A stretch of DNA of 64,000 bases from Algoriphagus iocasae (GTDB lineage: Bacteria > Bacteroidota > Bacteroidia > Cytophagales > Cyclobacteriaceae). This document shows, one piece after another, positions 40,290-46,661 of this stretch (its first letter is position 1; each line of letters begins with the position of its first letter). The stretch covers positions 1,054,001 through 1,118,000 of the forward strand of contig NZ_JACIJO010000001.1 in the NCBI RefSeq assembly GCF_014206875.1. Reading direction: 5' to 3'. The position numbers and the translations under genes are program-made. A model generated the notes under the pieces. It was not told the DNA's origin and did not search any database. It worked only from the letters and a program-made list of their open reading frames with translations.

Positions 40290-40577
40290 TTATTCCAGTT
40301 CTTTGGCAGTTTTTGAGTCTGCTATTTTGAAAGAATTAGTTTTTGTATGCATTTCTAATCCCCATCTCTCCAAATTAGGGAGTTCCAGACTTTTTTCCCT
40401 GTATTCATCTGGGGTCATAATGGGTATACCATAAATGATCGGAAAATATCTCTGGCAAGTCGAGCACGTAAGTAGCCCTTCTATGATTTCTTGAGAATCC
40501 GTTTCTTGAATGACTTGAATTTCTAAGTCACTTTTATCAAAAGGGCAACATAGTATATCTAATAGTTTTCGATTCAT
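40290..40577 (-). CDS. Trm112-like zinc protein, last gene of the TPP-riboswitch operon
   Basis: 95 residues. The Trm112 fold shows LLDILCCPFDKSDLEIQ, with Cys10 and Cys11, and LLTCSTCQRYFPIIYGIPIM, with Cys38 and Cys41. Trm112 proteins are small zinc-binding partners that stabilise methyltransferases. It starts one base after the ThiE-like gene ends, and the methyltransferase three genes upstream in the same riboswitch-controlled operon is the obvious partner. In Bacteroidota the family is usually annotated only as Trm112 family. The partnership is inferred. Confidence 0.85.
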   Translation of the reverse strand: MNRKLLDILCCPFDKSDLEIQVIQETDSQEIIEGLLTCSTCQRYFPIIYGIPIMTPDEYREKSLELPNLERWGLEMHTKTNSFKIADSKTAKELE

Positions 40578-40578
40578 T

Positions 40579-41208
40579 TTAATACATTTTGAGGTGATCT
40601 ATATAGGTCTTGGTAGCTAGTTCTGGATCTTTGGAGTTTAAAATTCCAGAAATCACTGCTAGCCCTTCGAAGGATAGTTTGTCTAGTTGATGTAGATTTT
40701 CTGGCCTGATTCCTCCTGAAAGGAAAATCGGTAAAGAAGTCAATGATCTTGCATTTTGGATGTTTTCCGGCCTGACTATTTCACAGGAATCTACAGAAGA
40801 GGAAGGGAATACAGAGCAAAAGCTGATATATGATAAATGTTGCTCTTCTGCCCATACAATCAACTCATCTTGATTTCCAACAGTCAATCCTACCAATTGG
40901 CCTTTCAACGCTGACTTTATTTCTTCCCAATTGTCAGGTTTCCTGTCCAAGTGTAATCCATCCAAACCGGATTTTTCAACAAACTTCCAATCCTCATTAA
41001 TCAAAACAGCAACATCATATGGAAGTGCAAGCTTCTTGATTTCTTGGCAGAATCGGATTTTTTCTGATTCAGAAATACCATCTTTCCAGTGATTCCATAT
41101 TTGAAGAATCTGAACACCTCCCTTTAATGCTTGTTGGGTTTTATCAAAAAGAGCTTCCCAAGGCTGATTTGGATCAATTACCAGATAAATTCCTTTAAGT
41201 TTTTTCAT
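40579..41208 (-). CDS. ThiE/TenI-like protein with altered active-site motifs
   Basis: 209 residues, the length of thiamine phosphate synthase. The TIM barrel is visible in QALKGGVQILQIWNHW, VLINEDWKFVEKSGLDGLHLD, GLTVGNQDEL, the region ISFCSVFPSSSVDS and the phosphate end SGGIRPENL. In true ThiE the first loop is Q-x-R-E/x-K, and here it reads QIWNHW (36-41) without the Arg and Lys. The pyrophosphate loop T-x-T-K is replaced by SSSVDS (136-141). It may therefore use a different substrate or be a TenI-type protein. It starts four bases before the end of the AIR-synthase-like gene (overlap) and is under TPP riboswitch control. Confidence 0.8.
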   Translation of the reverse strand: MKKLKGIYLVIDPNQPWEALFDKTQQALKGGVQILQIWNHWKDGISESEKIRFCQEIKKLALPYDVAVLINEDWKFVEKSGLDGLHLDRKPDNWEEIKSALKGQLVGLTVGNQDELIVWAEEQHLSYISFCSVFPSSSVDSCEIVRPENIQNARSLTSLPIFLSGGIRPENLHQLDKLSFEGLAVISGILNSKDPELATKTYIDHLKMY

Positions 41209-42269
41209 TTCTTCCCTTGTTTGAAGGCTTGGAAAAAGGCTTCCCAGTAGGGATCGATTCCATTAAATTCAAAATTTGATTTTGTGCCGTCTTGAGCTAT
41301 GAGGAACTGCTCTGAACTTTCAGTGAATGTCCCAATAGAAGTGGCTTGGATACCCTCCTTGGCAAATTCATTAAGAAGGATATTTATTGATTCTGGTTTT
41401 ACAGCCATGATCATTGCGCCAGCGCCAATGGAAAAGAATGGGTCAATCCCGAATAACTCAGCAACTTTTTCAACCACTTCGGGTACAGGAATTTTCTGGA
41501 TATCTACCTGAAAACCCAATCCGGAAGCCTGGGCCATTTCTTGGATTGCTCCTAAAACTCCACCTTCAGTGACATCATGCATGGCGTGAAGTCCCCCAGA
41601 AATTGAGAGAGTTTGCCGGGCAATTACAGCTTCTTTCAATACAGATAGGTTCCAGAAATTATCGGCAGCTGTTTGTTGGATTTTTTCACCCAAAGCATTT
41701 TTAACTGTTTCGGGAAAAGCCATAGCCAAAAGAGAGGTAGATGAAATACCCGCATGCTTGGTCAGTAGAATGCAATCTCCACTCTTTGCTTGATTACTAG
41801 TAAGGATCTGTTCTTTGGGTGCCTTTAGGAAAAAAGTCCCACCTCCGGCTATCGTAGATTCAATTCCTGGGATTTGCCCTGTGTGCCCTCCAGTAATGCT
41901 GATTCCCATTTCCTGACAAAGCTCATGAATGTGACCCCAATATTTCTGAAAGTCACTTCTACTTAGATTGGTTGGTAAGTTTAAAACAAACTGGGCATAC
42001 TCTGGAGTAAAGCCAGTTGTGCTCATGTCATTGGCTAATAAGTAGACCGAAAGCCAAGCTGAAACTTTCATCCCCAGTCTGGGAATTAGAGATAGAGGAT
42101 CACTGGAAATAGCCAAAACTTCTCCATTTCCCAAATCTACAATGGAAGTATCCACACCAAATTTGGGTCCGCAAATGACTTCCTTCCTTTTAGCTCCACA
42201 GGAATAAAAAACATCTTCTTTGAAGATTTCTGAGCCAATCTTTCCGGAAAAATTTTCGAAAGCTCCCAT
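41205..42269 (-). CDS. AIR-synthase-superfamily protein (ThiL/HypE-like)
   Basis: 354 residues from the ATG at 42269, which overlaps the methyltransferase stop as TAATG; an in-frame ATG at 42368 lies inside that gene and is rejected. The N-terminal half has FGVDTSIVDLGNGEVLAISSDPLS, in the place of the metal/ATP Asp cluster of the superfamily. The middle has the ligand loop SGGLHAMHDVTEGGVLGAIQEM, close to the HypE and ThiL form. The HypE C-terminal PRIC cysteine is missing, so it is not a hydrogenase maturation factor. Its TPP riboswitch and ThiE-like neighbour make a ThiL-related role plausible. Confidence 0.8.
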   Translation of the reverse strand: MGAFENFSGKIGSEIFKEDVFYSCGAKRKEVICGPKFGVDTSIVDLGNGEVLAISSDPLSLIPRLGMKVSAWLSVYLLANDMSTTGFTPEYAQFVLNLPTNLSRSDFQKYWGHIHELCQEMGISITGGHTGQIPGIESTIAGGGTFFLKAPKEQILTSNQAKSGDCILLTKHAGISSTSLLAMAFPETVKNALGEKIQQTAADNFWNLSVLKEAVIARQTLSISGGLHAMHDVTEGGVLGAIQEMAQASGLGFQVDIQKIPVPEVVEKVAELFGIDPFFSIGAGAMIMAVKPESINILLNEFAKEGIQATSIGTFTESSEQFLIAQDGTKSNFEFNGIDPYWEAFFQAFKQGKK

Positions 42270-42994
42270 TAGACATCTAGCAATTGAACGTGAAAACCAA
42301 AGAAATCTCCGTAAGGGATCTTCCATTGCTTTTTTGGAAACCATTTCGGTAGTCCTGTGGCATTCCATTCGATTTTGTACTTCCTGTCGGGCAAAGCTTC
42401 CGCCACCAAGTCTTTCAGAGAACTTGGCGTGTAAAAATGAGCTGTGATATAATAATTGTTTCTACCAAAAGCCTGCTGGACTTTTCTACGGATCAATTTG
42501 GGAGTATTTCGGTTCATCATTCCGAATATGATTCCATATTTCCCTACTCTTACCGCCTCTTGGATAACCTTCACAGGGTTTTTGTAGTATTCAAAAGTGG
42601 TTACAAAAGCGAGTGCATCAAAGGAGTGATCCTTGAAAGGCATGTGATGAGAGTCTGCAAGGACTAGATCACCATCAAATAATTGGACTCCTTGAGCCAG
42701 CATAAAAGGGGAGATGTCACCCCCGCTAGCTTCCAGTCCTATTTCATGCCACCATCGGGTAAATCGAGTGGTGCCACAACCAAATTCCAACAGCGTTTTG
42801 ACCCGATGATCTTGTTTGATTAATTCCTCCAGTGTCTTTTTTTGCCAGACCTCCTGAAATTTATAAGGGCCTTCGTAGTAATCCTCGTAATGGTCCGTAT
42901 CATCTCGGTTGAAAAACCATTCTTTACGACCTTGCCAATTGCGTAGCCCATCTGGGGCAACTTCAAATGTTTCTTGTTTGATCAGTTTACTCAT
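42269..42994 (-). CDS. Class I SAM-dependent methyltransferase, first gene of the TPP operon
   Basis: 241 residues. Motif I is LLEFGCGTTRFTRWW (68-82), then GGDISPFMLAQG with an acidic residue for the ribose, motif IV is ALAFVTTFEYYKN and the C-terminal half (YYITAHFYTPSSLKDLVAE) is typical of the UbiE/COQ5-like group. Small-molecule methyltransferases of this type have few specificity signs. It is the first gene after the TPP riboswitch (67 bases). Its stop TAA overlaps the next ATG, and a Trm112-like protein is encoded at the end of the operon. The methyl acceptor is unknown. Confidence 0.85.
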   Translation of the reverse strand: MSKLIKQETFEVAPDGLRNWQGRKEWFFNRDDTDHYEDYYEGPYKFQEVWQKKTLEELIKQDHRVKTLLEFGCGTTRFTRWWHEIGLEASGGDISPFMLAQGVQLFDGDLVLADSHHMPFKDHSFDALAFVTTFEYYKNPVKVIQEAVRVGKYGIIFGMMNRNTPKLIRRKVQQAFGRNNYYITAHFYTPSSLKDLVAEALPDRKYKIEWNATGLPKWFPKKQWKIPYGDFFGFHVQLLDV

Positions 42995-43061
42995 TCGTCT
43001 ATGTTCATAGACCTGAATGAATCCCAGAAAAGGTGAGAAAGTGAAAAATAGGATGGTTCAC

Positions 43062-43132
43062 AATTTCCTACGCTGGCATTATCCAGATCAGGTTTTCGGG
43101 TATAATCTCAGCCTTTTGGGCACCCCGTTGTA
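43062..43132 (-). promoter_or_regulatory. TPP riboswitch (THI element)
   Basis: Read on the minus strand, the region shows the THI-box order: GGGGTGCC, then GGCTGAGA, then ACCC, then ACCTGATCTGGATAATGCC followed by AGCGTAGGAA. These are the conserved helices that bind the pyrimidine and the pyrophosphate of thiamine diphosphate. It ends 67 bases before the methyltransferase start and should repress the operon when TPP is plentiful. The expression platform is not clear, and no strong intrinsic terminator follows it. Confidence 0.95.
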
Positions 43133-43147
43133 ATAATTTATTCTATA

Positions 43148-43155
43148 CAAAGATA
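43148..43155 (-). promoter_or_regulatory. Probable -7 box (TATCTTTG) of the TPP operon
   Basis: The complement of 43148-43155 reads TATCTTTG, a full match to the Bacteroidota -7 consensus TAnnTTTG. It is 15 bases upstream of the riboswitch. No clear TTTG -33 box was found at the usual distance; only a weak TTTACC is present. Confidence 0.55.
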
Positions 43156-43220
43156 GAAACTAGGCTTTAAGGTAAAAGTCTTTCCGAAAGAGTTATTGGA
43201 AAGAAATGACTTTTTGGGTT

Positions 43221-43562
43221 TTAAACCTGAAAATCAAATATTTTTTCTGTCAGTGCCCAGCGCCAGTTTGGAGGAGTACCAGGTAAATTCGTCTGATATT
43301 GCCCCAGAAATGTTTCCCACTCCTGAACTTTCGGGTTACTTTCATCCAATTTAGCTTTCTTTTCGAAAGAGAACTCTTCGTCTCCCACCAAAATCATTGT
43401 AAGTCTATTCTGCCAACGATAAATACTCATCTGTAAAACACCAGCCACACGAATACTTTCTATAATTTCAGGAACTACGGCTTTGTGGCATTCCACATAA
43501 GCCTGAATAGTTTCTTCTTCATTCTTCAGGTCACAAATAAGGACGAAAGTTTGAGTTTTCAT
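43221..43562 (-). CDS. L-rhamnose/L-fucose mutarotase family protein (RhaM-like)
   Basis: 113 residues. The ferredoxin-like fold of the RhaM family is seen in TFVLICDLKNEEETIQAYVECHKAV, VLQMSIYRWQNRLTMILVGDE and the end TNLPGTPPNWRWALTEKIF. These enzymes interconvert the alpha and beta anomers of L-rhamnose or related 6-deoxysugars. Its place after the FucP-type permease and dehydrogenase genes suggests the sugar here is L-fucose or a similar deoxysugar. It is the last gene of the cluster, 86 bases past the permease stop. Cytoplasmic. Confidence 0.9.
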   Translation of the reverse strand: MKTQTFVLICDLKNEEETIQAYVECHKAVVPEIIESIRVAGVLQMSIYRWQNRLTMILVGDEEFSFEKKAKLDESNPKVQEWETFLGQYQTNLPGTPPNWRWALTEKIFDFQV

Positions 43563-43648
43563 TGCTTACTTATCTTGTTAATTAAATGAGTGATTTCCGA
43601 ATCTAAATTGGAAATCAAGCCGGTTAAGAATTGGTGGATATTTAATAG

Positions 43649-44956
43649 TTATTTGACGACTTCTTTTACTCTTACGCTAAATAATAGGACCATAACAAAG
43701 CAGACGAGTGGAAGAATGAATGAGAAATTGACTTCAGGAACTCCCAAAATCAACGTATCATCATAAGCTGCACCGCCAATATCCATGATCATTCCCTGAA
43801 GGGTTGGCATAATAGCACCACCGACAATTGCCATCACCAAATAAGCAGCGGCAAATTTTGAATCTTCTCCAAGTCCCTCTAAAGCAATGCCGTAGATCGT
43901 TGGAAACATCAGAGACATAGCAAAAGAAATGGCGACTAAACTGTACAATCCAAGCATTCCAGGAAGGAAAATTGCCCCGGCGGTGAATAAAATAGCCAAA
44001 ACTGAAAATATGGTAAGAAGCTTTGCCGCAGCAAAAAACTTGAATAGGTAGGTACAAACCCATCTTCCTACTAAAAAAACAACCAATGCGGCATAACCAT
44101 AATTGACGGCATCTGCATTTGAAATCCCCAGTACTTCAGCGTATTGATAAATGTAAGTCCAAACCATGATCTGAGCTCCCACATAAAACATTTGAGCTAG
44201 CGTGCCTTCTACAAAGTTTCGCTTGGATAGCAAACGCTTCATTGTTGCTTTGAAATCAATTTTATTATTGTCTTTGCTTTCAGGCATTTTGGCCACAGCA
44301 ATGATGACTAAAATAGCCAAAACCACTAAACCCAACATGACATAAGGATTTCTTATGACCATCAAATCAGCAGTTCTGATTACAGCTTTTGCAGACTCAT
44401 CGAGATTTGAGAAGATGATATTTCCATTTGCATCTGTTGCATTGGATTGGAGAGCATTAAGAATGAATTGCTTTGCGACAAAAAGGCCCGCCAAAGCTCC
44501 CATTGGGTTAAATGCCTGGGCGAGATTTAATCGTTGCGTGGCAGTAGCTTCCGGCCCCATGGAAAGAATGTATGGATTTGCGGTAGTTTCCAAAAATGCC
44601 AAACCAAAAGTCAGGATATACAAGGAGGCTAAGAAGAAGCCATAGCTTTCCCATGCAGCAGCAGGGTAGAATAGGAGAGCTCCAAAGCCGTATAAACCTA
44701 ACCCAAGCAAAATGCCGGTTTTGTATGAGTATTTTTTAATGAAAAAGGCGGCAGGAAGAGCCATTGTAAAATAGCCTCCATAAAATGCCATTTGTACCCA
44801 GGAAGCCTGAGTATTGTTCAGTTCCAAAACTCGCTTAAATGCCGCCACCATGGGATTGGTGATGTCATTTGCAAAACCCCATAAAGCAAAAAGGGATGTA
44901 ATCAGGATAAATGGTAAAACAAGATGTTTGGGTACAAGTGCAGGTTTTTGGGTCAT
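43649..44956 (-). CDS. fucP: L-fucose:proton symporter-type permease (MFS, FucP family)
   Basis: 435 residues with about 12 hydrophobic segments. The FucP family start is LVLPFILITSLFALWGFANDITNPMVAAF, followed by LELNNTQASWVQMAFYGGYF and the family motif LETTANPYILSMGPEATATQRLNLAQAFNP. It imports L-fucose or a related sugar with protons across the inner membrane. It lies 8 bases after the SDR gene, so the two are co-transcribed. It resembles other Bacteroidota FucP proteins, which can also take other sugars. Confidence 0.93.
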   Translation of the reverse strand: MTQKPALVPKHLVLPFILITSLFALWGFANDITNPMVAAFKRVLELNNTQASWVQMAFYGGYFTMALPAAFFIKKYSYKTGILLGLGLYGFGALLFYPAAAWESYGFFLASLYILTFGLAFLETTANPYILSMGPEATATQRLNLAQAFNPMGALAGLFVAKQFILNALQSNATDANGNIIFSNLDESAKAVIRTADLMVIRNPYVMLGLVVLAILVIIAVAKMPESKDNNKIDFKATMKRLLSKRNFVEGTLAQMFYVGAQIMVWTYIYQYAEVLGISNADAVNYGYAALVVFLVGRWVCTYLFKFFAAAKLLTIFSVLAILFTAGAIFLPGMLGLYSLVAISFAMSLMFPTIYGIALEGLGEDSKFAAAYLVMAIVGGAIMPTLQGMIMDIGGAAYDDTLILGVPEVNFSFILPLVCFVMVLLFSVRVKEVVK

Positions 44957-44964
44957 GATTGAGG

Positions 44965-45732
<768 letters not shown>

Positions 45733-45836
45733 TTATTGTTTTGTCAAAAGTCCACTAAAAACTGTTGACAGAGTTTTTTTACATTTTAATTTATTTCCAG
45801 AATACTGAGGTCCTTGGACTGTTGTCTTTCAATAAT

Positions 45837-46661
45837 TCAAATTCCATAAAACTCAATAGCAGTATTTCCCATGATGGCTTCTTTTTCAGATTTGGAAAGC
45901 CGATCGGTAAATTTTTCTACCAGCTCTAGTACTTGCTCGTATTCTGCTGCCACTTTACAGACTGGCCAGTCACTTCCAAACATCAATCGATTGGGGCCAA
46001 ATAATTCCAATGCTACTTCCAAATAGACCTGAAAATCCTTTGCCGTCCATTTTTTCCAGTCAGCTTCTGTGACCATTCCAGAAAGTTTGCAATAAATATA
46101 TTCCCGCTCAGCTAGAGGTGCCATTTCTTTTTTCCAATCTCGCCAGATTCCCAATTTGATATTTGGTTTGGCTATATGGTCAATCACAAATGGTTGTTCG
46201 GGAGCTTTTTTGACAAACTGCAAAGCCGCTTCCAATTGAGTATGAAAAATCAAGATATCATAGGTATAGCCTCTCTTTCCGATTTTCTCAATTCCCTGGA
46301 TAAAATCCTTGCGTAGCATGTATTCCACGGGTTTTGATTGGAGGACTTCACGATAGCCTTTAAGCTTGGGATGTTTCGCAAATTGGTCTAGGTCTTTGTC
46401 TAGTGCATCATTTGCCAAATCTGCCCAACCAACGACTGCCTTGATTTCCGGATATTCATCTGCCAGATCAATCAAAAAAGCCGTTTCATAAAAGCTTTCA
46501 TCTGCTTGAACGGCGACGCATCCATCAATTTCGAACTCTTTAAGAATTGGAATCAGGTCATCCGGAAGAAAGTTTTTCCGGATGACTTTCATGTCCTCAT
46601 TGATCCAGTCGTGCTTTGTAGGATTGTATTTCCAAAAATGCTGGTGCGCATCTATTTTCAT
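45837..46661 (-). CDS. Amidohydrolase-family lactonase, probable L-fuconolactonase
   Basis: 274 residues. The metal site is HQHFW (DAHQHFWKYNPTKHDW) at the N-terminus, followed by GCVAVQADESFYETAFL, VIDHIAKPNIKL and LMFGSDWPVC, with the conserved Asp near the C-terminus. This is the COG3618 family, which includes L-fuconolactonase and L-rhamnono-lactonase. It hydrolyses the lactone to the sugar acid in the cytoplasm. The start overlaps the last four bases of the FAH-family gene (ATGA), so the two are translationally coupled. Confidence 0.9.
   Translation of the reverse strand: MKIDAHQHFWKYNPTKHDWINEDMKVIRKNFLPDDLIPILKEFEIDGCVAVQADESFYETAFLIDLADEYPEIKAVVGWADLANDALDKDLDQFAKHPKLKGYREVLQSKPVEYMLRKDFIQGIEKIGKRGYTYDILIFHTQLEAALQFVKKAPEQPFVIDHIAKPNIKLGIWRDWKKEMAPLAEREYIYCKLSGMVTEADWKKWTAKDFQVYLEVALELFGPNRLMFGSDWPVCKVAAEYEQVLELVEKFTDRLSKSEKEAIMGNTAIEFYGI

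Follow-up and report, generated by a model that had tools for sequence, protein, structure and literature searches.

A thiamine pyrophosphate riboswitch-linked four-gene module of Bacteroidota with a putative role in the salvage or repair of thiamine-related compounds

A thiamine pyrophosphate (TPP) riboswitch followed by four closely packed genes lies on the minus strand of a 64-kb stretch of the Algoriphagus iocasae genome (NCBI RefSeq assembly GCF_014206875.1, contig NZ_JACIJO010000001.1, positions 1,054,001 to 1,118,000; hereafter the window, whose own numbering is used throughout). The aptamer (THI element), identified with Rfam RF00059, spans positions 43047..43137 and encloses the THI element that a sequence-only reading of the window had placed at 43062-43132. 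The promoter-like box noted in that reading was also found just upstream of the aptamer, as TATCTTTG at about 43155-43148 on the same strand, read from the sequence. The first gene (42269..42994) encodes a class I S-adenosylmethionine-dependent methyltransferase of 241 amino acid (aa) residues, matching Pfam Methyltransf_11 (PF08241) with 56.4 bits against a gathering score of 21.2. It is followed on the minus strand by genes for an AIR-synthase-fold (AIRS) protein of 354 aa (41205..42269; Pfam AIRS and AIRS_C), a ThiE-fold TIM barrel of 209 aa (40579..41208; Pfam TMP-TENI, 107.5 bits) and a Trm112-like zinc-ribbon protein of 95 aa (40290..40577; Pfam Trm112p (PF03966), 38.7 bits, cut-off 22), so that each of the four proteins has a Pfam match above the cut-off. 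The start codon of the AIRS gene lies inside a TAATG overlap with the methyltransferase gene, giving the 354-aa protein in place of a longer 387-aa frame in the open reading frame list. The ThiE-like gene overlaps the AIRS gene by four bases and the Trm112-like gene follows after a one-base gap, with coordinates and overlaps as first described.

The aptamer scored 68 bits (E 3.1e-11), where the RF00059 gathering score is 54.3, and no other Rfam family match in the 64 kb exceeded its gathering score. A search for the AIRS protein in 58 genomes, window genome included, returned ten carriers delimited by a clean score gap (at least 338 bits versus at most 49 bits), and all ten encode the same four genes in the same order behind a riboswitch above the gathering score. 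Scanning one genome per species gave 235 pattern matches, 186 of them encoding an AIRS relative, and the best 80 were studied; these loci belong to Bacteroidota or Balneolota, and a few come from the same genomes as the 58-genome set. The four genes were found in fixed order and on one strand in 79 of the 80 loci. The methyltransferase gene is present throughout, and the ThiE-like and Trm112-like genes are missing from one locus only, L126, whose contig stops 145 bases past the AIRS gene. Adjacent genes overlap or are separated by a few bases in most of these loci, and the longest true gap measures 528 bases (L079). Two still larger computed gaps (L065 and L070) were discounted, the frames having been called too short. 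A fifth operon gene was considered and rejected, as no open frame recurs among the loci with longer gaps; the next commonest neighbour family occurs in 13 of the 80 loci, on both strands, and other families in seven at most. Since all ten AIRS carriers share the four genes and the riboswitch, as do most of the 80 loci, the gene set is not a chance assembly. The conserved occurrence behind TPP riboswitches that the sequence-only reading proposed to look for is thereby borne out far beyond A. iocasae. The methyltransferase (E up to 1e-30) was detected in 13 of 395 genomes of an even phylum sample, window genome included, and the cassette is therefore an accessory trait.

Using a model built from twelve aptamers to search upstream of the cassette on the coding strand, a TPP riboswitch was detected in 74 of the 80 loci; two of the six loci missed (L056 and L076) start at a contig end. 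The aptamer ends 20-195 bases before the methyltransferase gene in 71 of the 72 loci measured. An unrelated transcript as the target of the riboswitch was rejected, given its constant position before the cassette across differing neighbourhoods. The motif TAnnTTTG, which we take to be the Bacteroidota -7 promoter element and which TATCTTTG resembles, occurs in 42 of the 74 riboswitch loci at -60 to +12 relative to the first base of the aptamer, against a mean of 3.3 and a maximum of 12 loci in 200 mononucleotide shuffles. In the minimum-energy fold of the leader (z -1.87) the start codon is placed in a hairpin, but 8 of 200 shuffles fold equally well, and no expression platform was assigned on this basis. 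In L098, the remaining one of the 72 loci measured, and in L048, a TonB receptor gene stands between the riboswitch and the cassette, an arrangement that would suit import of a substrate. In L048 a UPF0047/YjbQ gene (L048:1090-1527) also lies some 2 kb upstream of the riboswitch-TonB receptor-cassette operon; YjbQ is counted as a possible condensing enzyme in PMC5613172.

The window genome encodes a canonical ThiL (L007) apart from the cassette, as well as SelD and PurM (by eye), and neither another TMP-TENI protein above the cut-off nor ThiC, ThiD, TPK or ThiG at the thresholds used. Of a normal thiE and thiL, the presence of which had been raised in the sequence-only reading, only thiL was thus detected at these thresholds. 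Two further TPP riboswitch matches were observed in this genome, one of 67.7 bits (above the gathering score) before a TonB receptor gene and one of 46 bits (below it) before a gene for a PnuC-family transporter. The comparison was extended to 59 related genomes, comprising 21 carriers and 38 non-carriers, the latter hand-picked from the rows listed. The carriers are all those found in the 58-genome search (ten) and in the phylum sample (thirteen), two being shared, and the eleven known only from the phylum sample have a ThiE-like match within 2 kb of the methyltransferase. ThiC and ThiG were each found in none of the 21 carriers, versus nine and ten of the 38 non-carriers, respectively. Full-length ThiD (E up to 1e-39) was found in one carrier (G304) versus 11 non-carriers (one versus five above the curated cut-off), and a TMP-TENI protein outside the cassette (E up to 1e-8) in one carrier (G030, a second, canonical ThiE) versus 12 non-carriers. 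Partial ThiD matches of about 50-60 bits (carriers G226 and G257 and a few others) resemble other kinases and were left uncounted. TPK was present in 11 of 21 carriers versus 7 of 38 non-carriers, and a difference in ThiL was discarded, all 59 genomes having ThiL above the cut-off. Given the low counts of ThiC, ThiG, ThiD and TMP-TENI proteins, the carriers look like takers-up of thiamine or a relative of thiamine, and the module is, as judged from gene content, independent of ThiC, ThiG and, in 20 of 21 carriers, ThiD. As a side observation, in 24 of the 38 non-carriers ThiL was found while both TMP-TENI proteins and TPK were absent at the thresholds applied; the substrate of their ThiL might come from uptake of thiamine phosphate or from a thiamine kinase not yet known.

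Structural modelling of the ThiE-fold protein (pLDDT, the predicted local distance difference test score, 94.8) gave B. subtilis ThiE as the closest fold (Z 26.5, 2.2 Å over 208 residues, 22% identity), with TenI a more distant match (Z 21.5), and the curated ThiE family TIGR00693 was not reached (106 bits versus a cut-off of 145.1). In ThiE, residues R59, K61, N92, D93, D112 and K159 (B. subtilis numbering) bind pyrophosphate and magnesium, and T156, T158 and G188 bind thiazole phosphate. We compared 69 cassette proteins with 12 non-cassette Bacteroidota ThiE sequences, taken from 12 of the 13 genomes that encode a TMP-TENI protein away from any cassette (G086 was left out). R59, K61, N92, D93, D112, T156, T158 and K159 are all present in 12 of 12 reference sequences. 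In the cassette proteins R59 is replaced by W in 68, K61 by N or H in 65, D112 by P in 62 and K159 by A, V or S in all 69; D93 is mostly E or N (D in six), and N92 is kept as N in 59. T156 is S in all 69 and T158 is S or T in 68. The K159A variant is named as a studied mutant in a PDB title. The cassette protein thus shares with ThiE the TIM-barrel fold, H107, G188 and S or T at positions 156 and 158, and differs from it in lacking R59, K61, D112 and K159 and in having gained two invariant cysteines (window residues 131 and 142, 69 of 69). Given these losses and gains, synthesis of thiamine phosphate by a pyrophosphate-dependent reaction is an improbable role for it; it probably still holds a phosphorylated thiazole, with pyrophosphate displacement of the known style not being possible.

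These residues also bear on a rather unlikely alternative, in which the module is a thiamine phosphate synthase whose ThiE-fold protein couples thiazole phosphate with a pyrimidine bearing another leaving group. Either the AIRS-fold enzyme or the methyltransferase would make this pyrimidine, bypassing ThiD and hydroxymethylpyrimidine pyrophosphate (HMP-PP). Such a synthase would suit a fold nearer to ThiE than to TenI, a seemingly kept thiazole phosphate site, and the finding that in 20 of 21 carriers the cassette copy is the only TMP-TENI protein and full-length ThiD is absent. However, with ThiG in none of the carriers, thiazole phosphate would need to be scavenged, and both the loss of R59, K61, D112 and K159 and the TIGR00693 score argue against a synthase.

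The AIRS protein (AlphaFold2 model, pLDDT 93.6) is nearest in fold to HypE (Z 34.8 over 322 residues), followed by ThiL (29.2), SelD (28.9) and PurM (23.5). It nevertheless falls under every NCBIfam cut-off listed, including TIGR01379 for ThiL (77.8 bits versus 184.15), TIGR02124 for HypE (73.6 versus 251.6) and TIGR00476 for SelD (67.3 versus 125), and is, by these curated cut-offs, neither ThiL, HypE nor SelD. Its identity to HypE is 20%, and the C-terminal cysteine, which in HypE carries the carbamoyl group, was found at the end of none of ten aligned AIRS proteins. Although it belongs to the same superfamily as ThiL, it shares 22% identity with the ThiL of the window genome and lacks the near-C-terminal GGxDY and HF motifs of the latter. 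Four aspartates (D40, D57, D81 and D232) are found without exception in the 71 AIRS proteins compared; the first three align with aspartates of the window genome ThiL and D232 with one of its SelD, and ATP use is likely because of these alignments. That the cassette merely contains ordinary thiE and thiL genes with chance neighbours is very improbable. The Pfam and NCBIfam matches do carry the names ThiE and ThiL, but the four-gene linkage is fixed, a separate canonical ThiL is encoded in 59 of 59 genomes, the curated cut-offs are not reached and catalytic residues are lost. This explanation was rejected on the cut-offs, the residues and the separate ThiL, and the notion that the ThiE-like and ThiL-like pair performs the usual last two steps of thiamine synthesis fails with it, the pyrophosphate and magnesium residues being lost and the AIRS protein scoring far under the ThiL and HypE cut-offs.

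Searching plasmid records for the AIRS protein gave 22 with a relative (E up to 1e-20), from Halobacterium (13), Haloferax (4), Haloarcula (3), Acetoanaerobium (1) and Acaryochloris (1). Among the 20 records listed in detail, the haloarchaeal relatives show about 28-31% identity over 87-96% of the length, and those tested scored 138-181 bits with the window AIRS protein, compared to 45 for the window genome ThiL and 53 for its SelD. In all three Haloarcula plasmids (L182, L184 and L186) the gene of this AIR synthase family protein stands divergent beside genes for a thiamine-binding protein and a thiamine transporter, although, unlike the Bacteroidota cassette, the haloarchaeal loci contain no annotated methyltransferase, ThiE or Trm112 in the stretches viewed. 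The three Haloarcula loci resemble one another and possibly amount to a single observation. The transporter neighbour is a thiamine ABC transporter substrate-binding protein, and the thiamine-binding neighbour is annotated in L184 as belonging to the MTH1187 family. Nearer AIRS kin outside Bacteroidota may exist on chromosomes. Mobile carriage of the cassette was rejected, as the plasmid records gave only distant AIRS relatives, with no methyltransferase match at 1e-15, and a viral-contig scan with a single protein found none. A distant AIRS relative (29.8% identity) is also encoded on MT835528.1 (L187), a human faecal scaffold labelled as phage and carrying no annotation.

Of the four proteins the methyltransferase shows the strongest conservation, with a mean pairwise identity of 74% (74 loci), and its profile matches in the PDB include a probable 18S rRNA (guanine-N7)-methyltransferase, an enzyme that is a Trm112 partner. 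The fourth protein scored 73.9 bits with the archaeal Trm112 family NF038101, just below the cut-off of 77, and its profile matches solved structures of Trm112 and UPF0434-type proteins; it has an extra C-terminal stretch that is conserved in alignments. From family knowledge and the constant gene linkage, it would be expected to bind this methyltransferase. Known Trm112 partners mostly modify tRNA, rRNA or release factors, which, together with the by far highest conservation of the methyltransferase and its rRNA methyltransferase match, would fit a TPP-sparing or translational response, in which RNA or a protein is the target of the Trm112-methyltransferase pair and the remaining two gene products assist. 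We consider such a response unlikely, as three observations point to a small molecule: the ThiE-fold protein seems to have kept its phosphate site, two of the operons include a TonB receptor gene, and the Haloarcula homologues are encoded next to thiamine-related genes.

Combining these lines of evidence, it is proposed, at roughly even odds (about 0.5), that the cassette is a thiamine-stress module of Bacteroidota unable to make thiamine, which modifies a scavenged or damaged thiamine-related compound. At low TPP the riboswitch would permit synthesis of the four proteins. The methyltransferase, with its Trm112-type partner, and the ATP-using AIRS enzyme would then modify the compound, and the ThiE-fold protein would hold its phosphorylated thiazole part in the site inherited from ThiE. 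This last step would use neither HMP-PP nor pyrophosphate and might proceed via the two invariant cysteines, after which the product would rejoin the normal pool and be converted to TPP through ThiL or TPK. The riboswitch match, the conserved gene set, the absence of de novo gene matches in the carriers examined, the residue losses and gains and the folds were computed; repression of the operon by TPP, a thiamine vitamer as the substrate, binding of Trm112 to this methyltransferase, the membership of all four proteins in one pathway and the order of the steps are what we infer. The sequence-only reading had envisaged an unusual thiamine-related branch, such as an analogue, salvage or repair path. 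The setting of salvage or repair, with acquisition in place of de novo synthesis, agrees with our results, although analogue, salvage and repair are indistinguishable from sequence. Somewhat more tentatively, the cassette, whose enzymes match no established thiamine pathway, could represent an undescribed salvage or repair route, widespread in Bacteroidota, by which usable thiamine is rebuilt independently of HMP-PP and of pyrophosphate chemistry. In a bold chemical version, drawn by analogy with PurM, the AIRS enzyme would use ATP to activate a formamide oxygen on thiamine that has been degraded by base or has an opened ring, and the ThiE-fold protein with its cysteines would hold the thiol-phosphate part while the thiazolium ring re-closes.

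Several observations weigh against this proposal. Four loci (L058, L061, L062 and L065) have upstream sequence and gave no Rfam match even at E 0.05. The cassette is absent from 27 of 35 other same-genus genomes searched, some of them incomplete, and 11 of 12 same-genus non-carriers tested also lack ThiC, so the cassette is not essential for an auxotroph. The Fisher p-values for the gene-content differences are only 0.009-0.041, and they make the contrast look stronger than it is, since the genomes are related and the non-carriers were hand-picked. No thiamine gene was seen near the AIRS relative in one Haloferax, two Halobacterium and one Acetoanaerobium (by eye) locus. Finally, we know of no place for methyl transfer in known thiamine salvage.

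In a tree of AIRS proteins the window sequence groups with others from Algoriphagus, Lewinellaceae, Owenweeksia, Reichenbachiellaceae and some unclassified genomes (18 rows, 100/100), whereas G009, G016, G017 and G028, of the same genus as the window, are placed in another part. Because one genus holds two AIRS lineages, the split means transfer, or an old duplication with loss. Pairwise distances among the four proteins correlate at 0.61 to 0.81 (74 loci), as expected if the proteins travel together; a shared organismal history could also explain this. Two lineages inside one genus are often seen with transferred accessory genes, and the pairing of thiamine-like enzymes with a methyltransferase is reminiscent of antivitamin clusters, for example that of bacimethrin, both of which would suit a modified thiamine or antivitamin made for competition. 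This seems quite improbable, given that the carriers show no ThiC or ThiG (0 of 21 each) and that no widely recurring neighbour family is fit for export or resistance; TPP repression, if real, suits supply more than attack.

No paper that seemed to describe the four-gene set was found in a search of the open literature, most subscription papers lying outside that search, and the set is not described in the available portions of PMC5613172, PMC12442306, PMC12452182 and PMC6416309. Among the TPP-riboswitch operons of gut Bacteroidetes, thiSEGCHF-tenI, OMthi and pnuT-tnr3 are given in PMC5613172, which covers gut bacteria only. These share the riboswitch class and the phylum with the cassette, which joins a TonB receptor operon in two loci; however, the operons listed there hold no methyltransferase, AIRS-fold enzyme or Trm112, and the word 'methyltransferase' is absent from the main text of that paper. 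According to the abstract of PMC10881298, the majority of bacterioplankton cannot synthesise thiamine de novo. Which vitamers sustain such thiamine-dependent cells is often unclear. A conserved TPP-riboswitch module in organisms without the usual biosynthetic genes would suggest that they rely on a vitamer economy not yet recognised, and would imply new chemistry for both an AIRS-fold enzyme and a relative of ThiE. It would also caution against reading an annotated thiE in such genomes as proof of thiamine phosphate synthesis. The carriers include the culturable genera Algoriphagus, Pedobacter and Runella, which makes the proposal testable.

The window cassette is flanked upstream by a gene for a rhamnose mutarotase family protein and downstream by one for an esterase-like protein. 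Both flanks recur in three of nine other carrier loci (L041, L042 and L044) and differ in the other six, and the flanking genes are therefore regarded as lying outside the set. The upstream gene belongs to a run on the minus strand at 43221-46661, upstream of the riboswitch, which, besides the gene with the L-rhamnose mutarotase-family match (Pfam), holds genes read by eye as those of an amidohydrolase, a sugar transporter and a short-chain dehydrogenase. This run resembles a deoxysugar catabolic operon and adjoins the cassette in the same number, three of nine, of the other carrier loci.

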